Positions 17,086-29,676 of a stretch of 33,653 bases of DNA are shown here, piece after piece. This stretch comes from Flavobacteriaceae bacterium. Its GTDB lineage: Bacteria; Bacteroidota; Bacteroidia; Flavobacteriales; Flavobacteriaceae. Position 1 is the stretch's first letter. Every line of letters begins with the position of its first letter. A program made the position numbers and the translations under genes. The stretch spans positions 1 to 33,653 of the forward strand of contig JAKISU010000015.1 of NCBI GenBank assembly GCA_021648445.1, in the 5' to 3' direction. The notes beneath the pieces were generated by a model, which saw nothing but the letters and a program-made list of their open reading frames with translations, searched no databases and was not told the origin of the DNA.

Positions 17086-17937
17086 ATGTTAGTGAAAAGG
17101 TTTTACCCATTCATTTTATTACTTTTTTTAAGTAGCTGTTCAAACTATGGTCAGTTAAAAGTGATTGTTGATTTGCCTCATTTTCTTAAGGAAGTTTCCG
17201 GGATACAAACCGTCAAAAATTCTGATTTGATTTGGATGTTAAACGATGGCGGTAATTCTAATAAAATTTATGGACTTTCCGATAAAGGAAAGTTAAAAAA
17301 AGAATTGGTTATTAATGCTAAAAATCATGATTGGGAAGATTTAACTACTGACGATAAAGGCAATCTCTATATTGGTAATTTTGGCAATAATCATAATGTC
17401 AGGAAAAATTTAGCAATCCTCAAAATAAATCACAAAGACTTATTAAATGAAAAAAATGTAGACATTGAACGTATTCAGTTTTATTACCCAAGCCAGCATA
17501 AATTTCCTCCAAAAAAGAAACACTTGTATTTTGATACTGAAGCATTTTTCTTTTATAATGACAGTATTTACCTTTTTACTAGAAGTCGCGTAAAAGACGA
17601 TTACGGAAAAACTTCTTTATATAAAATTCCTGCTATAACTGGTAATCATACTGCTCAATTCATATCAGAATTTACTTTTTGTAATGAATTAAAATGTTCA
17701 ATAACCTCAGCTGCTATTAGTTTTGATAAGAAAAAAGTTATTCTTTTAAGTCATGACACTGTAATCCTTTTTACAGATTTTAAAAATGACAATTTCTTTA
17801 GTGGAAAAGTAACTCTACTCCCACTTAACCATAAATCTCAAAAGGAAGGTGTTTGTTTTAAAAATAATAATACACTTTATATAACAGACGAATATTCACA
17901 TGGCACAGGTGGAAATTTATATGAATTTGGTTTTTAG
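17086..17937 (+). CDS. Lipoprotein of unknown function, possibly a beta-propeller
   Basis: The 283-residue protein has a lipoprotein signal (FILLLFLSSCS, lipobox cysteine near residue 18). The rest is beta-rich with repeated phrases such as LIWMLNDGGNSNKIYGLSDKG, NHDWEDLTTDDKGNLYIGNF and EGVCFKNNNTLYITDE, which look like propeller blades. I cannot assign it to a named family. It starts 2 bp after dusB and is probably co-transcribed. Location is likely the outer membrane or periplasm. Confidence 0.8.
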   Translation: MLVKRFYPFILLLFLSSCSNYGQLKVIVDLPHFLKEVSGIQTVKNSDLIWMLNDGGNSNKIYGLSDKGKLKKELVINAKNHDWEDLTTDDKGNLYIGNFGNNHNVRKNLAILKINHKDLLNEKNVDIERIQFYYPSQHKFPPKKKHLYFDTEAFFFYNDSIYLFTRSRVKDDYGKTSLYKIPAITGNHTAQFISEFTFCNELKCSITSAAISFDKKKVILLSHDTVILFTDFKNDNFFSGKVTLLPLNHKSQKEGVCFKNNNTLYITDEYSHGTGGNLYEFGF

Positions 17938-18050: not shown

Positions 18051-21000
18051 TTAAAACCCAACTCCTAAGGCAAAAGCAAAACGCAAACCGTCATCAGAAT
18101 TAAATAATGAAAGGTTTCCTGTCATTAAATCAGCTGCATTGATGAAAATCCCGCCACCTACTGAGGTATTCCAAGTATCTGAATTAAAATCAGTATCTAA
18201 AACCAAATTATCATCAACCCAAACCCGACCATAATCAAAACCGCCATAAATTCCAATTTGTATTGGTAATATACCCGTTTTTCGTTTTCTAAAATTAAAA
18301 CGTATATCTGTATTTTGATAAAAAGACTCTTTGCCTGTAAAACGCTGATTTCTATAACCTCGTAAACCATCATGAGCACCAATAGAAGCTGCCTGATAAA
18401 ACTCAAAATCATCACCTAAATTGATATGCGCTTTTAATTTTGTGGCTAACACTAACCTACCGTTAGGTACTAATTTGTAATTAAAACCCAATTCAGGAAT
18501 GATATACGCAAAACCTTTATCAGTTTCATCTGCATTTATCTTATAACCTACTTGTAGTGAAGTCATCATCCCTAAGGTTGGAAAAGCTTTGTTATCAAGG
18601 TTCTCAAAATGGTATTTTGTGTCTATTCCAAAAAAGTTTTGACTTATTTCTTCAGTAGTATTTAAAAAATCATTGATAAACCTTCCTTCGGTCTCTTCTA
18701 CTTCAACAGATTCATAAGAAATTGCTGTTTTTAAGCTTGCTCCTGTTGACCCTCTCCAAATTAAAGAAGGTGCAATTTTTATAGTTCTTAACTTTACACG
18801 ATTGAAATCAAGGTCTAAATCATCATCAAAATTTGGAGTACTATTACCAAACCCAAAGAAATTTATAGCATAATTAGAGCTGGTTAAATCTGCATCTAAT
18901 CCTAAATTTAGATTACCAACTGCATTTGCCCATTCGCCTGTATAACCAAATTCAAAACCATTTGTAGCAAAATAATAATTTGCTACAACACTATGTTGAG
19001 ATGTAAACGGATTTCGATTAAATCCATAAGAAGTATAAATATTAGAAATTCCTATTTTGAATCCATCATCAGGATTTGAACCAATACTCGGTATTAATTG
19101 ATTTGTGCTATTTTTAAGTTTTGTGTAATCATATACATTTGTTTCATAATTATCAGTTAGGTTTTTACTTCCTTTGTCAGTAGAAAAGTTATTTTTTTTA
19201 GACTTATAATCATACATTTTAACTTTTTGCCCCTTTTCAATAGTGTATGTATCATTATTTTGTCCGCCAATAATTCTAATTTTAATCAATCTGTCTCCTT
19301 CCCCATATACTTTAAATACATCTTCATCATCTAAGCCATAGATCCAAATTTCTTTAGTTTCATTTCTATTGTATGTTTTTTGATGAAAAACAGTACCTTT
19401 TTCACCTTTTTGAATGCGATACCCAGTCACTTTTGTTAACCCATTCGGCATCCGTTCTATATCAAACCAATCGTCTTTGTCAGTACCTCTAATTACACCA
19501 AAGTTGTTGATCACATAGTAATAGTCATTTGCTATTTTTGGAAGGTTTTGAATTCTAGCCAATAATATTCTTTTTATTTCAGTGATAGTTTCATCTTGTA
19601 CTTCTTTTGGGAATGATTCAAATGCCTTATCAATAATATCTATTGTCAGGTTCTTTTGAATAAACGCAGCTTGTTTTTTCCATTGTTCCTTATCCGTCTT
19701 ATTGAGCAAGATCATATCTAATGAATAAGGACTGGAATTAAATCCTTTTACATTTCTAATAGCATCCATAAAGCCTTCCATTAATTTTAATGAAGGAATT
19801 GCTCTAGTTGCAAAATTCATCAAAGTACCATCTCCCATAATAGAAAAAGCCTGATCTCTATCTCTTGGAATGGGTTTATATACAACTTTCTTATCCTCTT
19901 TAAACTCAGCCCATCTCCATTGATCTACATGCCTGTCCCAATCGCCAATCACCATATCAAACAATCTAGCTCTAAGATACATTGTATCATCAACTACATA
20001 TTTTTCATCCTTTCGTAGTTTCTTTAATAGTTCATCTGTACTTTCAATTTTATTTGCGTAGCCAAAACTTTTGAGGTTTCCATGACCATCAGAAACATGT
20101 TCTTCGATCATATATAGTTCATCTCCAAACTCTCCATTAAAGCCTTCTAAAGCGGTTTGTTTTGGAACATAATATAATACCGGATTAGGATGATAGAGAT
20201 TTACTGCATCAGAAAGTGCACCTATAGTAAATGGTGCATAGGGATGAGAACCTGTATAAAAATCTTGCAATATTTTTTCAGTAAATGTATCATCAAACTG
20301 ACCTCCAATATATTGATCTTTAAAAGCCATTGCCTGTAGATATATAGTGGCACTTTTTCGCAAAGCACGCATTACATAAGCTTTTCCTTCTTTATTTACC
20401 AAACGAAGTGATTTAGATTGGTTTCCCCCGCCTTTTCTCAGCGGTTTTAATCCGCCAAACAAGGTATCTAAATCAACTGTAGGTGCTGACACTTTTGTTC
20501 CATAATATTTTCGATAGCGTTCACCCCAGAATTTGGTAAATGCCTTGCTTTTTGTCACTTCTTTTTGGCTATAAATAGATGCCTTTACTGAAGTAGGAAA
20601 ATCATTGTTAAATTTAGAAATTTTAGCTGCTCTATCTGAAGACAACACTGATGTTTGATAAATAATTGCCTTTGTTTTTGCTGAATAAAAACGTACCATA
20701 GAAGATCCGTCTTTAAACACGTCTAATCTTGCAAAACCTGCGTCACTGGAAGAAAATTCACCATCAACATTTCTGGTTGCAGTATTTTTTGACCCTGAAC
20801 CACTTATAACTTGTGGTAAATTATCTTTCACCAAATATTGTAAGCTATGTTCATGCCCTGAAACAAAAATTACTTTATCATTTTCTTGCGCCAAGGTAAC
20901 AACACGTTTTTTAAAAGTATTGTATTTTTGATTTTGTAGATCTGCCGGAGAAACTCCACTTGTTTTCCTCAATACATTTTTTAAAGTTCCTAAAACCGGC

Positions 21001-21734
21001 AATGGTTTCATGTGCGAACCAAAAGAATATTGCCCACCATGAGGTCCATTTGTAAACATAGGATGATGCATTGCAATCAAGGTAGTTTTACCTCTTGCTT
21101 TTTTGATTAGCCCTTTGAGTTCTTCAAAGAATTTTGCTTTGGTTCTTATTTCACAATCATCATTAATGGTTGGGTGCTTATCCCAATTGGTCAAATACCA
21201 TTCACTATCAATAACAATAAGTTCAATAGCATCACTAATATGAACCTTTTCTATCGGGCAACCATTTTCCGGTAAAAAAGTGTTTTTACCTAAGATGTCT
21301 TCTATATATTTTTCTTGACGCTTTAATCCTTTTAAGCCATTCGCATACCAATCATGATTACCCGGAATAAAAATAGTATTGCCTTTAAAATCTTTGACTG
21401 CATTGGTTTGCATATTTAACTGGTGTTCGGCAAACGCTCTGTTCTCATGTCCTTTTTTTGGTAATCCTTTTGGATAAATATTGTCTCCTAAAAAAATAGC
21501 TGTACTATTTTCTGAAGCTTTTGAAAGTTCTTGTTTAAAATATTGTAATGCAACAGAAGAAGTTCCCAATTCAGAATTGCCTGCATCACCGATTAAATAA
21601 AATGAATGTGCAATTTCTTTAGTTGGAAATTGCGTGTTGATGTTAGCATTATTAATTTGAGTATTATAAGTAGCACAAGCATTTAATAAGAAAATAAAAA
21701 GAATACCTAAAATAAGTGTATAATAATTCCTCAT
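18051..21734 (-). CDS. Metallophosphoesterase / kinase-like / Omp85-barrel fusion lipoprotein
   Basis: This is a 1227-residue envelope protein. A lipoprotein signal ends at Cys20 (LLNAC). Residues about 42-345 are a calcineurin-like metallophosphoesterase with every motif: GDAGN (D50), GDNIYP (D84), GNHDW (126-129), MHHPMF and GHEH (293-296). Residues about 420-740 hold a signature of CotH/FAM20/HipA-like kinases: a candidate lysine strand KAYVMRALRK (451-460), IGDWDRHVDQW with D600, and PIPRDRDQAF with D625/D627. A linker with one GGQNNDTY repeat follows. Residues about 870-1227 form an Omp85/BamA-like barrel with the LRGY motif at 1124-1127 and a terminal phenylalanine. The phosphoesterase and barrel are clear; the kinase-like part is inference from motifs. 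It is the last gene of the GAF/HD-PycTM operon, 16 bp after its neighbour. Confidence 0.85.
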   Translation of the reverse strand: MRNYYTLILGILFIFLLNACATYNTQINNANINTQFPTKEIAHSFYLIGDAGNSELGTSSVALQYFKQELSKASENSTAIFLGDNIYPKGLPKKGHENRAFAEHQLNMQTNAVKDFKGNTIFIPGNHDWYANGLKGLKRQEKYIEDILGKNTFLPENGCPIEKVHISDAIELIVIDSEWYLTNWDKHPTINDDCEIRTKAKFFEELKGLIKKARGKTTLIAMHHPMFTNGPHGGQYSFGSHMKPLPVLGTLKNVLRKTSGVSPADLQNQKYNTFKKRVVTLAQENDKVIFVSGHEHSLQYLVKDNLPQVISGSGSKNTATRNVDGEFSSSDAGFARLDVFKDGSSMVRFYSAKTKAIIYQTSVLSSDRAAKISKFNNDFPTSVKASIYSQKEVTKSKAFTKFWGERYRKYYGTKVSAPTVDLDTLFGGLKPLRKGGGNQSKSLRLVNKEGKAYVMRALRKSATIYLQAMAFKDQYIGGQFDDTFTEKILQDFYTGSHPYAPFTIGALSDAVNLYHPNPVLYYVPKQTALEGFNGEFGDELYMIEEHVSDGHGNLKSFGYANKIESTDELLKKLRKDEKYVVDDTMYLRARLFDMVIGDWDRHVDQWRWAEFKEDKKVVYKPIPRDRDQAFSIMGDGTLMNFATRAIPSLKLMEGFMDAIRNVKGFNSSPYSLDMILLNKTDKEQWKKQAAFIQKNLTIDIIDKAFESFPKEVQDETITEIKRILLARIQNLPKIANDYYYVINNFGVIRGTDKDDWFDIERMPNGLTKVTGYRIQKGEKGTVFHQKTYNRNETKEIWIYGLDDEDVFKVYGEGDRLIKIRIIGGQNNDTYTIEKGQKVKMYDYKSKKNNFSTDKGSKNLTDNYETNVYDYTKLKNSTNQLIPSIGSNPDDGFKIGISNIYTSYGFNRNPFTSQHSVVANYYFATNGFEFGYTGEWANAVGNLNLGLDADLTSSNYAINFFGFGNSTPNFDDDLDLDFNRVKLRTIKIAPSLIWRGSTGASLKTAISYESVEVEETEGRFINDFLNTTEEISQNFFGIDTKYHFENLDNKAFPTLGMMTSLQVGYKINADETDKGFAYIIPELGFNYKLVPNGRLVLATKLKAHINLGDDFEFYQAASIGAHDGLRGYRNQRFTGKESFYQNTDIRFNFRKRKTGILPIQIGIYGGFDYGRVWVDDNLVLDTDFNSDTWNTSVGGGIFINAADLMTGNLSLFNSDDGLRFAFALGVGF

Positions 21735-21750: not shown

Positions 21751-22944
21751 TTAAACTCCTTGTGATTTAAATGCTATTGCAAAAGCAATGACAGAAACAA
21801 TGATGCCTATTAAAAAAATAGTATAAGTAATTCTTAAAATCTTATATTTTTTATGCAATACCAATCCTAAAAAATAGAGATCTTTTTTCATTGATGAATA
21901 AAGGTAATCTCTGTCTTGCATCATTTCGCCCATTGCCCATTCAAACTCATCTAATTTCATTTTATGAAAATTGCCAAAAAACAAAAGGTTTACTTTTTTC
22001 TGTTTAACATCTTCTTTAGTGAACTCACCACTAGTGACATTTGGTCTTGTTGCCAATACCGAAAGTGCCATTGACACCAAACTGAATACCACAAAAATTA
22101 TAGTTGGAATAATTAAATAATGATTTGAAGGATTGTCTAATTTTGGAATTAAATTTGACAATGCCATTGATATAATAATGGCATTTACTGAAAGTAAAAT
22201 ATTTGCTTTTGTATCTGCAATATTACTCAAAGTAATATGGTTCTTCAATGTAACCCTAAACATAGTTTCTATACCGCGTTCGGGTAAGGTAGCCTTTTGT
22301 TTTTTCAACTTAAATTCTTCGGCTTTGAACTTCTCTTTTTTAGCTTCTTTTTTTGATTTCTTTAAACTTTTATAAAGTTGGGCTAAATTTTTATCTTTTA
22401 CCGGCTGCCAATTGGTCAATGCATGATCTGTGTAAAATTGATGTTTTTTCGTTAAAAAATCAATATTTTCTTGAATCCATTCAATATCAGTAAATGTTTT
22501 TAAATTTTGTTGCCCCCACTCTTCACGTAATAATTCACTAACTTCTAGAAACCCTTTATTACCTATATGGGCATAATCAGCATCCACCAAAATTTTCTCT
22601 AGCTTATTAGTAGGTTCAATTGTTTTTGTTGTAGCCAGAATACATTTCTCTATCTTATCTATAGTAGTCTCCGCAATTTTTTCAGCTTCAAGAAAAGCTC
22701 TTGCCATTTTTGCTCCATGTTGTTCATGATCTTCATTGTTCTTCACATAACCTACATCATGCAACCAAGCTGCTATTTCTAAAATTTGTGCATCTTTAGC
22801 ACTTATTTTTTCACCTTCAATTAATTCTTTCACTCGTTTTACTACTCTACGGGTATGATTTAAATTATGGTAAATAAAGGTATTTGGTAAATTTTTGGTT
22901 AGCTGAGATACTGCATAGTCCTCAGCTTTCTGTTCTATGCTCAT
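21751..22944 (-). CDS. HD-domain phosphohydrolase fused to a PycTM (Pycsar effector) membrane domain
   Basis: Residues 1 to about 180 are an HD hydrolase domain with metal ligands H30, H62-D63 (WLHDVGY) and D121 (VDADYAH). A lysine-rich coiled linker (about 183-220) leads to the PycTM module of about 170 residues. That module has the diagnostic SNIADTKANILLSVNAIIISM, two further membrane segments (276-297 and 371-392), and an amphipathic part between. In Pycsar defence, PycTM proteins bind cCMP or cUMP and disrupt the membrane. The HD domain may degrade such nucleotides or another phosphoester. No pyrimidine cyclase is in the window, so activation by another signal is possible. It lies 6 bp after the GAF gene. 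Confidence 0.88.
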   Translation of the reverse strand: MSIEQKAEDYAVSQLTKNLPNTFIYHNLNHTRRVVKRVKELIEGEKISAKDAQILEIAAWLHDVGYVKNNEDHEQHGAKMARAFLEAEKIAETTIDKIEKCILATTKTIEPTNKLEKILVDADYAHIGNKGFLEVSELLREEWGQQNLKTFTDIEWIQENIDFLTKKHQFYTDHALTNWQPVKDKNLAQLYKSLKKSKKEAKKEKFKAEEFKLKKQKATLPERGIETMFRVTLKNHITLSNIADTKANILLSVNAIIISMALSNLIPKLDNPSNHYLIIPTIIFVVFSLVSMALSVLATRPNVTSGEFTKEDVKQKKVNLLFFGNFHKMKLDEFEWAMGEMMQDRDYLYSSMKKDLYFLGLVLHKKYKILRITYTIFLIGIIVSVIAFAIAFKSQGV

Positions 22945-22950
22945 AAATAA

Positions 22951-25335
22951 TTATGCTTTTATATCTTCAATTAATTGGTCAATGGTCATGGTAGTTTTTT
23001 CGTTAAAATCAGTTTTATAAATTACTTCAACACGTAAGGCTTTTAAACCTAGAACACCTTGTAGGTCTTCTAATTCTAACTTTTCTACTTTTCCTAATAA
23101 TTTTTTCGCCTGTAAATATTTTATATACTTTCTATACTCTTTTGCATCTTTATCTTGTGAATATACAATTGCTATTTTACCCGGTACAGTTAAGCGTTCG
23201 TTTGTTCCTTTTATATGCGCTTTATCAATCCTCTTTTTTATAATTTCATAACGAATATTATAGGCTCCGTCAACATCAAATTTCTTTTCATCCATCCTGA
23301 ATTTAATAGACAATGGATTGCTATGTACTAAAATTAAAGATGCTATTTCTAATTTATGGTCTAGATCATCTTTCAATTTATGTGCAACATTCTCCATCTC
23401 ACACATCATTTGTAACTGCCACAAACGAAGATTATATAAATACAGAGGATCATATTTTTTATTATGTACCAATGATTGACCTATATACATATTGAACTCT
23501 ACGCCATCCGTTTTATAACGTTCAAAATAATGAGGAAACATCGCTTGTGCTTCTTCTTGTTTTTTATCGAGGTAATTTGCTAGATTTTCATTTAATATGG
23601 TAACACTTTCTTCATAGGCTTTACGTTGTTCATACACTACATGAAGGTTTTTATCTAACCTATCCATATACATTTCAACCACTTTTTCAAGTTCAATATC
23701 CATTCTTTTTGCATGATTAAAAACAGGATATATTTCACGTTTTAAAAAGTCAATAATTCCAATTTCATCACCTGCTTTTAATCCTTTTTTTACCCTAAGT
23801 AAATATTCTTCAACTCGAAACATTAATTCCTCATAAATAGGTAAGTTCTCCTTTTCACAAGCCTTTTCCAGCACCTCAACTGCCAAACTTAACTGAACAA
23901 CTAAATCATTTTTTATAGCAGTATTACGAGCTAATGATGATCCTTTAATATCTGATTGTCCGAAAAGCGGACATACATTTTCAAAAACAATATCATCTAA
24001 TTTCGGATTTTCGTCACTTTGAAATTTATCTTTATGATATTTTTCAGCTGCTTCATAAAAACGCCACTTAACAGTTGGATGAATGGTTGTATAATGTTCC
24101 TGAATGGTCGCCTCTAAAATATTCTGCCTTTCTTCAGAAGAACGTTTGACCGCCGCTTCAAAAACCGGTATAATATCTTTTAATTTATCCTGCGTTACAG
24201 AATTTAATTCATAAGCCCTGGGAGAAGCAATTTCTAATAAGGCCAAATCATTATTTTCAGTAGCTTTTATTGGTATCAAAATTATGCTCTGTATACCTTT
24301 AGATTTCAAGTTTTTATAGAATGGGTTTCTATCAGTCGATTCGCCATATTTCTCAACATCAGAGATTGTTATTAGTTCATGATTATGAAAAACTTTATTT
24401 ACAATTCCTTGACAGAAATAATCATTATTACACGAAATTTCAGCTTCATTACTTAAAATAAGACTATCAGAATTCTTAACACTTGTTTTGCACAACTTCG
24501 TATTTATAGCATCAAATATTGAAAACCCTAGTTTTAAATCTTTAATATTATAAAATTCACGCAAATTCTGTTGCATATCAACCAATAAATTTTCATCTTG
24601 TCGTAATAAATTATCTCGTAAAGATGATAAGGTTTCATCAGCTGTTACATCAAAAAGATTCATAATACCAAATCCTTTAAAGATATAACTGTTAGGAGGG
24701 AATTTTTCTTTCCAAACCTCAATATCATCAAAATTATCGAGTAGTAATTTATAATCTTCTTCTGTTATTTTAGGTGCATTCTTTGTTGGGATAATTTCTG
24801 AAAAATCGCCATTAAAAGCTACTCTATAATGTTTTGTTGTTCCTGATATTTTATCCGGGATATCAAAAAAGAAGGGTCTTTTTAAGTCAATATGATATCC
24901 GTAACAATATCCGAGAATCATTACACAGGCATGCAAATACATTTCGTTCTCCTCTAGGTTTCTGATCTTAAAACCATAATCATCACCGGCATTATTTAAA
25001 ATATTTTCAAAACGAGTCGAAAACTTAAAAGAAGTAAATACAAATGGCACACTTGCCGCCTTAATTTCATTTAAAAGTAAAGGTTCAGGAAACAATGGTT
25101 CAAGTAAGAAATCAATCTGTTTCTGATACTTTTCAAATAAAGAAAAATCATTAAATCCCTCTATTAACTCTGGATGATTCTTAAATTCTTTTACCATCAA
25201 TTTAGCAGACTCATAATAAGGATGATCTTTTTGTAAAGCATATTTTTCAAAATAAGAAAATACTTTATCAAAACTAACATAGATTTGTAATGGAAGTTCT
25301 AAGTTTTCTAAACTATCTGGCTCTTGCATAAACAT
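22951..25335 (-). CDS. GAF-domain protein, putative sensor
   Basis: This 794-residue soluble protein shows no signal peptide or membrane segment. Residues about 235-400 form a GAF domain (DMQQNLREFYNIKDLKLGFSIFD, YKNLKSKGIQSIILIPIKATE), a small-molecule binding module. The N-terminal 230 residues and the long helical C-terminal 390 residues match nothing I can name. There is no histidine kinase, GGDEF or cyclase motif. It is the first gene of a tight operon with the HD-PycTM protein and the phosphoesterase fusion, so it may sense the ligand that governs them. ATG 25335 follows GCGGGTAAGTT; ATG 25329 is an alternative. Confidence 0.82.
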   Translation of the reverse strand: MFMQEPDSLENLELPLQIYVSFDKVFSYFEKYALQKDHPYYESAKLMVKEFKNHPELIEGFNDFSLFEKYQKQIDFLLEPLFPEPLLLNEIKAASVPFVFTSFKFSTRFENILNNAGDDYGFKIRNLEENEMYLHACVMILGYCYGYHIDLKRPFFFDIPDKISGTTKHYRVAFNGDFSEIIPTKNAPKITEEDYKLLLDNFDDIEVWKEKFPPNSYIFKGFGIMNLFDVTADETLSSLRDNLLRQDENLLVDMQQNLREFYNIKDLKLGFSIFDAINTKLCKTSVKNSDSLILSNEAEISCNNDYFCQGIVNKVFHNHELITISDVEKYGESTDRNPFYKNLKSKGIQSIILIPIKATENNDLALLEIASPRAYELNSVTQDKLKDIIPVFEAAVKRSSEERQNILEATIQEHYTTIHPTVKWRFYEAAEKYHKDKFQSDENPKLDDIVFENVCPLFGQSDIKGSSLARNTAIKNDLVVQLSLAVEVLEKACEKENLPIYEELMFRVEEYLLRVKKGLKAGDEIGIIDFLKREIYPVFNHAKRMDIELEKVVEMYMDRLDKNLHVVYEQRKAYEESVTILNENLANYLDKKQEEAQAMFPHYFERYKTDGVEFNMYIGQSLVHNKKYDPLYLYNLRLWQLQMMCEMENVAHKLKDDLDHKLEIASLILVHSNPLSIKFRMDEKKFDVDGAYNIRYEIIKKRIDKAHIKGTNERLTVPGKIAIVYSQDKDAKEYRKYIKYLQAKKLLGKVEKLELEDLQGVLGLKALRVEVIYKTDFNEKTTMTIDQLIEDIKA

Positions 25336-25495: not shown

Positions 25496-26692
25496 TTAAA
25501 TAATTTTTTTAGAAATTCTCGAAGCAGCAATTTTAGCAGCTAAAAATCCCAACGTAATAATTGTAAAAAATACAATGATAACATTAGCCATTTCAAATTT
25601 AACAGGATAAGCTAAGGAAGAAGTTATCATTATTAATTCGAATTTTTTTTGCAAAAGCACAAAAATAATAGCAATTGACAAGCCAATTATAAGTCCGAAA
25701 AAAGTTAACAGGAAGCCTTGAAGCATAAATATTTTTTTAATTTCCTTGATTGTAGTTCCAAGACTAAATAATGTTTTCAGATTCTCTTTTTTGTCTAAGA
25801 TCATCATAATAATAGCACCAACAACATTAAATAAGGCAATGATTAAAATCAACGTAAAAATTAAATAGAATATTAAATTTTCAGAATTCAACATCTTATG
25901 AAAAGAGGCATTGAGCTGTTCTCTGGTTTGTATTTTAAAATCATCACCTAATTTGGCTTGTAACTCTTTTTTTACTTTATTTTTATCTGCGTTTATAGCT
26001 AATTTTAACTCAATTGCAGAAATCTGATTCAGTTTATAACCTAATAAACTTTGCGCTATTGACAAATGAGAAAACACATATTTATTATGTAATTCTTCAG
26101 TCAAGCTAAATATACCTATTGGTTGTAAATTTAATTGATTGAATGCTGTTTTAGGATTATTAATATATCCTTTTCCGGGCTTTGGAACCGACACTTTTAA
26201 TGATTCAATAAAATCATAGGTACCTAAAGATAAAGCCGATGAAATACCTCTACCAACAACTACAGTATTTATAGCTTCTTTATCTAACCACTCACCTACA
26301 TATATGGCAGTGTCAATATTATTAACCAACAAATAATTGGTGTCAACACCCTTTATGCTTGCAATATGTGACTTATCTTTATATTCAAAAAAAGCTCTTT
26401 CTTCAACAACTTTACTATAACTAACAATTTTTTTATCCTGTAATATTGTAGTCATTGAATCGGTGAAGAAAAATGATTTTCCTTTTTCAGCACTTATCTT
26501 GAGGTCAGGATCAGAAATTTTGATAAAATCTAAGCTAAACTCCTTTAAACCTGAAAAAACAGAGAGTACAATAAACAAGGCAATGGCTCCAACTATAACA
26601 CCTAAAGCAGCTATTAAGGTGATAATATTAATCGCATTATTACTACTCTTGGTAAATAAATATCGTTTTGCTATATATAACGGAAAGTTCAA
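25496..26692 (-). CDS. FtsX-like ABC permease, LolC/LolE type
   Basis: The 398-residue inner-membrane protein has the LolC/E layout: one N-terminal membrane helix (IITLIAALGVIVGAIALFIVL), a periplasmic domain of about 220 residues, then three helices in the FtsX-type permease domain (about 270-390) with the segment MILDKKENLKTLFSLGTTIKEI. In proteobacteria such proteins extract lipoproteins with the LolD ATPase. No ATPase is encoded nearby. It begins 1 bp after the rbfA stop and is probably co-transcribed with it. Confidence 0.9.
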   Translation of the reverse strand: MNFPLYIAKRYLFTKSSNNAINIITLIAALGVIVGAIALFIVLSVFSGLKEFSLDFIKISDPDLKISAEKGKSFFFTDSMTTILQDKKIVSYSKVVEERAFFEYKDKSHIASIKGVDTNYLLVNNIDTAIYVGEWLDKEAINTVVVGRGISSALSLGTYDFIESLKVSVPKPGKGYINNPKTAFNQLNLQPIGIFSLTEELHNKYVFSHLSIAQSLLGYKLNQISAIELKLAINADKNKVKKELQAKLGDDFKIQTREQLNASFHKMLNSENLIFYLIFTLILIIALFNVVGAIIMMILDKKENLKTLFSLGTTIKEIKKIFMLQGFLLTFFGLIIGLSIAIIFVLLQKKFELIMITSSLAYPVKFEMANVIIVFFTIITLGFLAAKIAASRISKKII

Positions 26693-28878: not shown

Positions 28879-29676
28879 ATGAGCTATTTAGAAGCTATTA
28901 TTTTAGGGTTAATTCAAGGGTTAACTGAATTTTTACCTGTATCATCAAGTGGCCATTTAGAGCTAGCCAAAGCTATTTTCGGGGACAATTCTTTACCTGA
29001 AGAAAGTTTAACTTTTACTGTAATCTTACATTTTGCCACAGCCTTGAGTACGCTTGTTGTTTTTAGAAAAGAAGTGCTTGAAATTATAAAAGGAATTTTT
29101 CAATTTAAATGGAATGATGAGATGATATTTTCACTGAAAATTATTATTTCTATGATTCCTGCTGTAATTATAGGTCTGCTTTTTGAAAAACAGTTAGAAG
29201 CTTTTTTTGGAGGCAGAATTTTACTGGTAGGTTGTATGTTATTAATTACGGCAGTCCTGTTATTGTTAGCCGATAGAGCTAAAAACACCACTAAAAATGT
29301 TTCTTATACAAATGCTTTAATTATTGGTGTTTCGCAAGCTATTGCTATGCTTCCCGGAATTTCTCGTTCAGGAGCTACTATTTCTACTTCTGTTTTATTA
29401 GGAGTTGACCGTACAAAAGCTGCACGTTTTTCTTTTTTAATGGTAGTGCCATTAATTTTAGGAAAAGTGGCTAAAGATATACTTGGCGGAGATATTAATT
29501 TTGAAAGTTCTCAAATAGGAATAATGAGTGCAGGGTTTGTGGCTGCATTTATTTCAGGATTATTTGCCTGTAATTGGATGATAACCTTGATCAAAAAAAG
29601 CAAGTTATCATATTTTGCCATCTATTGTACTGTTATTGGGTTGATAGCTATTAGTTATGCTTTATTAAATAATTAG
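28879..29676 (+). CDS. uppP: Undecaprenyl-diphosphatase
   Basis: UppP dephosphorylates undecaprenyl diphosphate, recycling the lipid carrier for peptidoglycan. It is a 265-residue polytopic membrane protein with both catalytic motifs: GLTEFLPVSSSGHLELAK near residue 15-32 and LPGISRSGATISTSVLLGV near 158-176. The start at 28879 gives MSYLEAIILGLIQG, the normal N-terminus, 2 bp after DUF3098. Confidence 0.96.
   Translation: MSYLEAIILGLIQGLTEFLPVSSSGHLELAKAIFGDNSLPEESLTFTVILHFATALSTLVVFRKEVLEIIKGIFQFKWNDEMIFSLKIIISMIPAVIIGLLFEKQLEAFFGGRILLVGCMLLITAVLLLLADRAKNTTKNVSYTNALIIGVSQAIAMLPGISRSGATISTSVLLGVDRTKAARFSFLMVVPLILGKVAKDILGGDINFESSQIGIMSAGFVAAFISGLFACNWMITLIKKSKLSYFAIYCTVIGLIAISYALLNN

Follow-up and report, generated by a model that had tools for sequence, protein, structure and literature searches.

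What joins an enzyme of phosphate chemistry to an outer-membrane barrel in a single flavobacterial protein? The question is raised by one gene in a 33,653-nucleotide stretch of DNA from a Flavobacteriaceae bacterium (contig JAKISU010000015.1 of assembly GCA_021648445.1; hereafter the window). The gene is an open reading frame at positions 18051–21734 of the reverse strand, starts with ATG and encodes 1,227 residues; on the basis of the reading frame and a full-length AlphaFold2 model, it consists of a lipoprotein signal, a metallophosphoesterase domain, a kinase-like (PKL) domain, a beta region and an Omp85-type barrel. The middle domain had no significant match in Pfam, NCBIfam, PADLOC or PHROGs, the best PADLOC match being PDC-M03A (E 0.0049, 13.9 bits, over residues 552–619). 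We consider it probable that the protein is an envelope-located fusion of two enzymes, a PKL phosphotransferase and an acid phosphatase, carried on an outer-membrane barrel and tied to a phosphate or polyphosphate pathway.

Predicted fold of the middle domain

Residues 391–760 were modelled with AlphaFold2 from 81 sequences of named flavobacterial genomes (alignment A1), giving a confident PKL-type fold (predicted local distance difference test, pLDDT, 89.0; predicted template modelling score, pTM, 0.89). Foldseek placed CtkA (E 4.9e-5), CotH (6.7e-5) and PI4KIIalpha (2.2e-4) at the top of the PDB matches, and all 50 matches listed were PKL folds. Structure comparison with VIA, which rescored Foldseek's own candidates and was not an independent search, gave the highest scores to PI4KIIbeta (Z 15.9, 266 residues, 4.7 Å) and CotH (Z 15.1, 256 residues, 4.0 Å), followed by CtkA (Z 13.3), HipA (Z 12.1) and FAM20 (Z 11.3), with PKL enzymes throughout the 50 matches listed. 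A viral fold library yielded only distant kinase-like matches. An initial annotation of this gene had proposed a kinase-like domain between the phosphatase and the barrel, and the fold check that it called for beforehand returned PKL enzymes, CotH, HipA and FAM20 among them. A two-lobed PKL-superfamily fold is supported by the model for the middle domain, whose limits we place at residues 391–745 (19500–20564, reverse strand, as for all parts of this gene) from the AlphaFold2 model, the fold searches and a profile alignment to CotH.

Conservation of the putative active site

Site conservation was followed in 197 distinct middle domains, obtained from 212 hit rows with the window's own domain added. 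Left out were exact duplicates and any hit covering <250 positions of the query, namely secondary hits and one fragment, L161:3-956. D593 and D598 are invariant across the set. The putative catalytic loop, GDWDRHVDQWRW (residues 597–608; 19911–19946), aligns with the CotH and HipA loops and contains D600, the candidate catalytic base, which is kept in 192 domains, together with R601 (195) and H602 (189). It is followed by the putative metal-binding motif PRDRDQ (residues 623–628; 19851–19868), aligned with PYDYD of CotH, in which D625 is kept in 194 domains, R626 in 195 and D627 in 194. Upstream, a conserved glycine-rich loop leads into a strand bearing R456 and K460 (residues 435–460, GGGNQ...YVMRALRK; 20355–20432): G435 and G436 are each kept in 193 domains, G437 in 187 and Q439 in 191, position 456 is arginine in 195 and lysine in 2, and position 460 is lysine in 195 and glycine in 2.

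The strings highlighted by the initial annotation are present in the protein (IGDWDRHVDQW at residues 596–606, PIPRDRDQAF at 621–630 and KAYVMRALRK at 451–460), and D600 and D627 do stand 27 positions apart, although the residues in between number 26 and not 27. The last of these strings had been put forward as a lysine strand, which holds for R456 and K460 but not for K451, a variable position (lysine in 79 and arginine in 77 of the 197 domains). Conservation of D600 and D627 in homologues, whose absence would by that annotation have refuted the proposal, was borne out, and the exceptions resemble pseudokinases rather than noise. The alignment confirms that motif conservation in the middle domain is not due to chance, and the domain most likely holds a complete kinase-type active site made up of the glycine-rich loop, R456/K460, E544, D600 as base and D625/D627 for metal binding.

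The key kinase site is broken in 8 of the 197 domains, five of which additionally lack E544, depart from the GGG.Q loop and look pseudokinase-like. Six of these eight losses are in duplicates adjoining an intact copy; serine replaces D600 at three loci (L161, L162 and L166), each of which also holds an intact copy. Eight sites in each domain were scored for the 165 full-length proteins: both active sites are kept in 152, the phosphatase site only is lost or damaged in 10, the kinase site only in 3 and both in none. One of the ten, L182, is a truncated frame, which casts doubt on its loss of the phosphatase site, and five of the eight sites survive in L184 and L123. All three kinase-negative copies (at loci L119, L120 and L121, from three genera) lie in tandem with a kinase-positive, phosphatase-negative copy, and such complementary loss is what would be expected of two separable activities that the cell needs together. 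One further full-length copy, elsewhere in genome G055, falls outside the tandem comparison. As a separate observation, the PKL lipoproteins at L161, L162 and L166 form divergent pairs and are candidate kinase/pseudokinase pairs.

Relationship to known families

PDB sequences compared with the middle domain by phmmer and profile searches gave nothing significant; CtkA was the best (E 0.045), found with a diverse 16-row profile (A3) in an alignment that takes in the NFDRH loop and C-lobe of CtkA. For profile–profile comparison, 19 of 20 CotH loci from Bacteroidota and 18 of 20 HipA loci were usable. Against CotH, GDWDRH paired with GNWDNY and IPRDRDQAF with IPYDYDNTLG, placing VDDTMYLRARLFDMVIGDWDRH...IPRDRDQAF on the CotH catalytic loop and DxD motif; the hhalign score was 36.4 (P 4.3e-4), as against 15.4 for the reversed profile and no more than 25.5 for any of 150 column-shuffled profiles, with a low HH-suite probability of 34%. 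Of the profile comparisons suggested in the initial annotation, the one with CotH thus hints at a distant relationship, HipA stayed at chance level and the FAM20C Pfam model was unmatched.

The CotH model PF08757 had no match in the window protein (E ≤ 10) and did not appear in the family listing of the 81 A1 sequences; an echo of it appeared in 1 of the 16 members of A3 (E 0.037). The HipA_C model (PF07804) was not significant (E 0.086 in 1 of 16 A3 members), and the FAM20C model (PF06702) was absent from the window-protein matches at E ≤ 10 and from the 11 A3 families (E ≤ 1). PF00454 lipid kinases were rejected as a source family, being found in 0 of 99 Bacteroidota genomes searched. We regard the domain as a PKL-superfamily family in its own right, new both as a family and in its setting; by the sequence models tested, it does not belong to CotH, HipA or FAM20. 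From fold and motif we infer that it would work like a CotH-, FAM20- or PI4KII-type kinase.

Architectures and distribution

Of 395 Bacteroidota genomes sampled, 142 carry the PKL domain, and the full-length protein occurs in 56 of 100 genomes related to that of the window. A plasmid search recovered PKL relatives in 5 of 72,556 records, every one from Bacteroidota. Four architectures were distinguished: A (~1,230 residues, as in the window protein), B (~870 residues, PKL–barrel), C (a PKL lipoprotein of ~540 residues) and D (a PKL protein of ~423 residues with an N-terminal hydrophobic anchor). Read by eye, the N-termini inspected resemble Sec signals, lipoboxes or anchors, with the exception of the truncated frame L182. 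By pattern matching, a lipobox is present in 126 of 165 A proteins and 7 of 8 C proteins, and in none of the 16 B or the 8 D proteins. All four architectures look exported, judging by these N-termini.

Phosphatase domain, beta region and barrel

Residues 1–20 (21675–21734) form a putative signal sequence ending in the lipobox LNAC, with Cys20, read from the sequence by eye rather than by a signal-peptide predictor. The metallophosphoesterase domain follows at residues 46–296 (20847–21599; Pfam Metallophos, E 4.6e-8). Purple acid phosphatases share the motifs DxG, GDxxY, GNH(D/E), xxxH and GHxH, and all five have counterparts in the window protein, with ligands D50.G, GD84..Y87, GN126H, H223 and GH294.H296. 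In a motif alignment of 80 of the 81 reference homologues (A2), these motifs, tyrosine ligand included, are kept in 79 or 80 of 80. The N-terminal domain of the full-length model (residues 28–1227; pLDDT 80.5, pTM 0.76) matches Plasmodium GAP50 in Foldseek.

Between the PKL domain and the barrel lies a mainly beta-strand region (residues 746–873; 19116–19499; DSSP of the full-length model), in which no POTRA-like alpha/beta pattern was found, the predicted model showing strands and one 4-residue helix. POTRA is the defining part of Omp85 proteins (PMC11116518), and on the model the window protein is without it. The C-terminus (residues 875–1227; 18054–19112) is predicted to be an Omp85-type barrel with 16 long strands by our count in the full-length model; it matches BamA and TamA in Foldseek (TamA barrel 4n74, template modelling (TM) score 0.77 by target length) and carries the L6 motif LRGYR at residues 1124–1128, whose R1125 and G1126, part of RG(Y/F), are present in 80 of 80 homologues. 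Omp85-family similarity is best at residues 1044–1198 (NCBIfam E 3.2e-16, yet 59.8 bits against a 200-bit cut-off), and both flanking domains are thus as the initial annotation had described them.

Gene neighbourhood

Directly upstream on the same strand is a gene for an HD-domain protein with a C-terminal PycTM (two-transmembrane) domain (21751–22944, reverse strand; Pfam PycTM E 1.8e-37, HD E 1.9e-9), followed by one for a 794-residue protein with weak GAF similarity and no significant Pfam or NCBIfam match (22951–25335, reverse strand). On the other side, a gene on the forward strand (17086–17937) encodes an SdiA-regulated/phytase-like propeller protein (Pfam SdiA-regulated, 21.9 bits with a cut-off of 21) with a lipobox, LSSC, recognized by eye. 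Further envelope genes nearby encode a LolC/E-like permease (25496–26692) and an undecaprenyl-diphosphatase (BacA/UppP; 28879–29676).

Within 6-kb flanks of 80 close loci, HD-PycTM was found in 62 by phmmer or 65 by tblastn, the SdiA-regulated gene in 65 and the 794-residue gene in 51, a conservation that could be explained by vertical inheritance. We also examined a wider set of 80 regions, drawn from 23 families and 69 genomes in a non-random sample in which distant relatives were picked first. HD/PycTM was present in 45 of these regions, the SdiA-regulated gene in 35, PPK1 in 25 (from 10 families), a SixA-type phosphatase and the 794-residue protein in 16 each, a class-III cyclase in 11 and PAP2 in 8. 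About 0.42 PPK1 genes would be expected by chance in 80 regions, assuming 1.3 copies per 4.2 Mb placed at random; by architecture, the regions with PPK1 were 13 of the 41 with A, 11 of the 30 with B and 1 of the 9 with C or D. Outside family f32, 44 genomes have at least two PPK1 matches and 38 of them carry the PKL domain (hand count). At one locus (L254), genes for HD-PycTM, PPK1, the SdiA-regulated protein, the PKL protein and the 794-residue protein all lie on one strand. At L254, L255, L257, L258, L277, L298 and others, the PPK1 beside the PKL gene has ~680 residues and is shorter than most PPK1 matches listed.

Among 61 genomes, 20 carry PKL, 19 carry PycTM and 17 carry both (Fisher 3e-10; the Fisher and Poisson linkage figures ignore shared ancestry), and the two genes lie ≤5 kb apart in 13 of the 16 genomes with both places known. 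Pfam and PADLOC label the PycTM domain a Pycsar defence effector, and 17 of the 19 PycTM genomes have PKL; a housekeeping or envelope role for HD-PycTM seems likelier in these genomes than one in defence. This offers a different reading of proteins named after a phage-defence effector, which in the 61 genomes sampled tracked the PKL gene. Seven of the 11 class-III cyclase homologues (the Pycsar partner type) come from one family, and no nucleotide cyclase was seen among the annotated neighbours of the window gene. Separately, at L250, L251, L252, L268 and L269 a class-III cyclase–TPR gene stands with the PKL gene and with HD and PycTM genes, either fused or apart, in a pairing that resembles Pycsar.

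Proposed function and alternatives

The make-up of the domains, their predicted fold, the conservation of their sites, the division of activities among duplicates and the gene linkage are results of computation; location, activity, substrate and donor, as set out below, are inferred. The protein would be exported and then lipidated, as its lipobox suggests, and its C-terminus would form the 16-strand barrel in the outer membrane with both enzyme domains hanging from it. These domains most likely face the periplasm rather than being surface-exposed, a placement favoured by Omp85 topology and by PlpD, in which an enzyme domain joined to a barrel of this type remains periplasmic (PMC11116518). 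The PKL domain would most likely transfer a phosphoryl (or nucleotidyl) group to an envelope substrate and the phosphatase domain would take phosphate off, the two forming an opposed or sequential pair. The tie of this module to an HD-PycTM protein, presumed to sit in the inner membrane, together with the PPK1 and SixA genes near many of its relatives, makes a role in a phosphate or polyphosphate signalling or storage pathway probable.

Several observations weigh against a two-enzyme fusion of this kind. The Foldseek E-values are modest (8 matches only below 0.001, none better than that of CtkA), as are the TM-scores (0.42–0.54 for CtkA, 0.28 for CotH), and the profile comparison with HipA stays within what chance can produce (hhalign 19.9, a score that 2 of 100 shuffles also attained). 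The equivalent of the beta3 lysine is not settled between R456 and K460, both being conserved. The kinase-negative copies form a single clade in the tree and so count as one event rather than three, a split that was afterwards kept. No tested neighbour was present in 4 of 4 regions of family f32 or in 8 of 9 barrel-less (C/D) regions, and PPK1 was found neither in the sequence flanking the gene in the 80 close relatives nor in the window's own genome (85% complete). Finally, ATP is not expected in the periplasm, which makes the phosphate donor a real problem: if the protein is active, reversible phosphorylation would take place outside the cytoplasm, in a compartment without an established energy source for kinases. 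The donor question could then be addressed with one purified domain.

Polyphosphate would remove the donor problem, and the best-surviving alternative has the PKL domain use it, or another non-ATP donor, with the phosphatase acting as a polyphosphatase and the barrel helping polyphosphate, or a product carrying phosphate, to cross the outer membrane. The excess of PPK1 over chance in the wider regions, the presence of PKL in most non-f32 genomes with at least two PPK1 matches and the one-strand run at L254 all speak for it; set against them are the lack of PPK1 near the gene in close relatives, at least six PKL-carrying genomes with no PPK1 match (G000, G011, G048, G412, G138 and G176) and the cytoplasmic location of PPK1, so far as known. 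We know of no polyphosphate-using PKL enzyme, which also counts against this alternative, and we regard it as unlikely. Rather improbable, too, is a family of outer-membrane phosphotransferases in Bacteroidota driven by polyphosphate instead of ATP, in which PPK1 would supply polyphosphate, HD-PycTM would link it to the inner membrane, the PKL domain would phosphorylate lipids, glycans or proteins of the envelope and the phosphatase would reset them.

The PKL domain might instead be active without being a kinase, performing AMPylation, glutamylation or lyase chemistry in the manner of SelO, SidJ or the LanM dehydratase domain. In Pfam, the window protein comes nearest, without significance, to DUF4135 (E 0.036 on the domain), a family associated with LanM. 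PKL activities other than kinase are also emphasized in the KINtaro paper (PMC10870513). A fused phosphatase, however, suits phosphate-ester chemistry, and the closest folds by Z are PI4KII and CotH; we think such chemistry quite improbable. It is very unlikely that the PKL domain is a pseudokinase serving as scaffold or sensor, with the phosphatase alone at work. Pseudokinases are frequent in the PKL superfamily, and the unclear beta3 lysine and the eight broken sites would fit one. But D600, D625 and D627 are each kept in at least 192 of 197 domains, the PKL site persists in relatives without any phosphatase domain, and the confinement of losses mostly to duplicates beside an intact copy is expected only if the kinase site normally works. 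That the barrel is a secretion device displaying the enzyme domains outside the cell as a passenger that acts on extracellular substrates, for instance host or algal phosphoesters, is scarcely credible: Omp85 relatives include secretion porins and the propeller neighbour is phytase-like in relatives, but the PlpD enzyme domain stays periplasmic (PMC11116518) and architectures C and D retain the PKL domain without a barrel.

Comparison with known systems

Searches of an open-access part of PubMed Central yielded no description of the window protein, although it may have an entry among the 72 KINtaro families (Table S1). A review (PMC10202324) counts a metallophosphoesterase of R. anatipestifer (Niu et al. 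2021), a possible relative of the window protein, among type IX secretion effectors; OMP76 was considered as the same protein and rejected, being a different protein of 710 residues (PMC10281475). The family is widespread among the Bacteroidota sampled yet lacks a significant Pfam or NCBIfam model, and it comes with its own phosphatase and a predicted outer-membrane site.

CotH (PF08757; 5jd9) shares with the middle domain its fold and, in register, a GxWD loop and an IPxDxD motif, but its Pfam model is unmatched in A1 and separate CotH proteins occur in 24 of 61 Bacteroidota genomes; we know of no CotH fused to a barrel or a phosphatase. Type II PI4K (9hhm, 4wtv and 4yc4) has the highest structural Z, over 264–266 residues, and differs in being a eukaryotic lipid kinase of ~12% identity whose family PF00454 is missing from the Bacteroidota genomes searched. 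HipA and CtkA share the fold and a DRH-type loop, and CtkA is the best PDB sequence for A3; their sites of action are the cytoplasm or host cells, whereas the window protein is placed in the envelope, and neither the HipA_C model nor the HipA profile comparison reached significance. FAM20 kinases resemble it in fold and in their extracytoplasmic setting, and the kinase/pseudokinase neighbours recall FAM20C and FAM20A, but there is no sequence match and the window protein is bacterial and fused to a phosphatase and a barrel. The Legionella Lani_1194/NoeA family is likewise PKL, has been reported from Flavobacteriales too and has arginine in place of the catalytic lysine (PMC9758233); it is a barrel-less kinase–methyltransferase, compared here with the window protein by description. 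PlpD, a patatin–Omp85 protein, joins a lipase-type domain to one POTRA (PMC11116518), whereas the window protein has two phosphate enzymes and no POTRA-like part; the two share the arrangement of an enzyme domain ahead of an Omp85-type 16-strand barrel.

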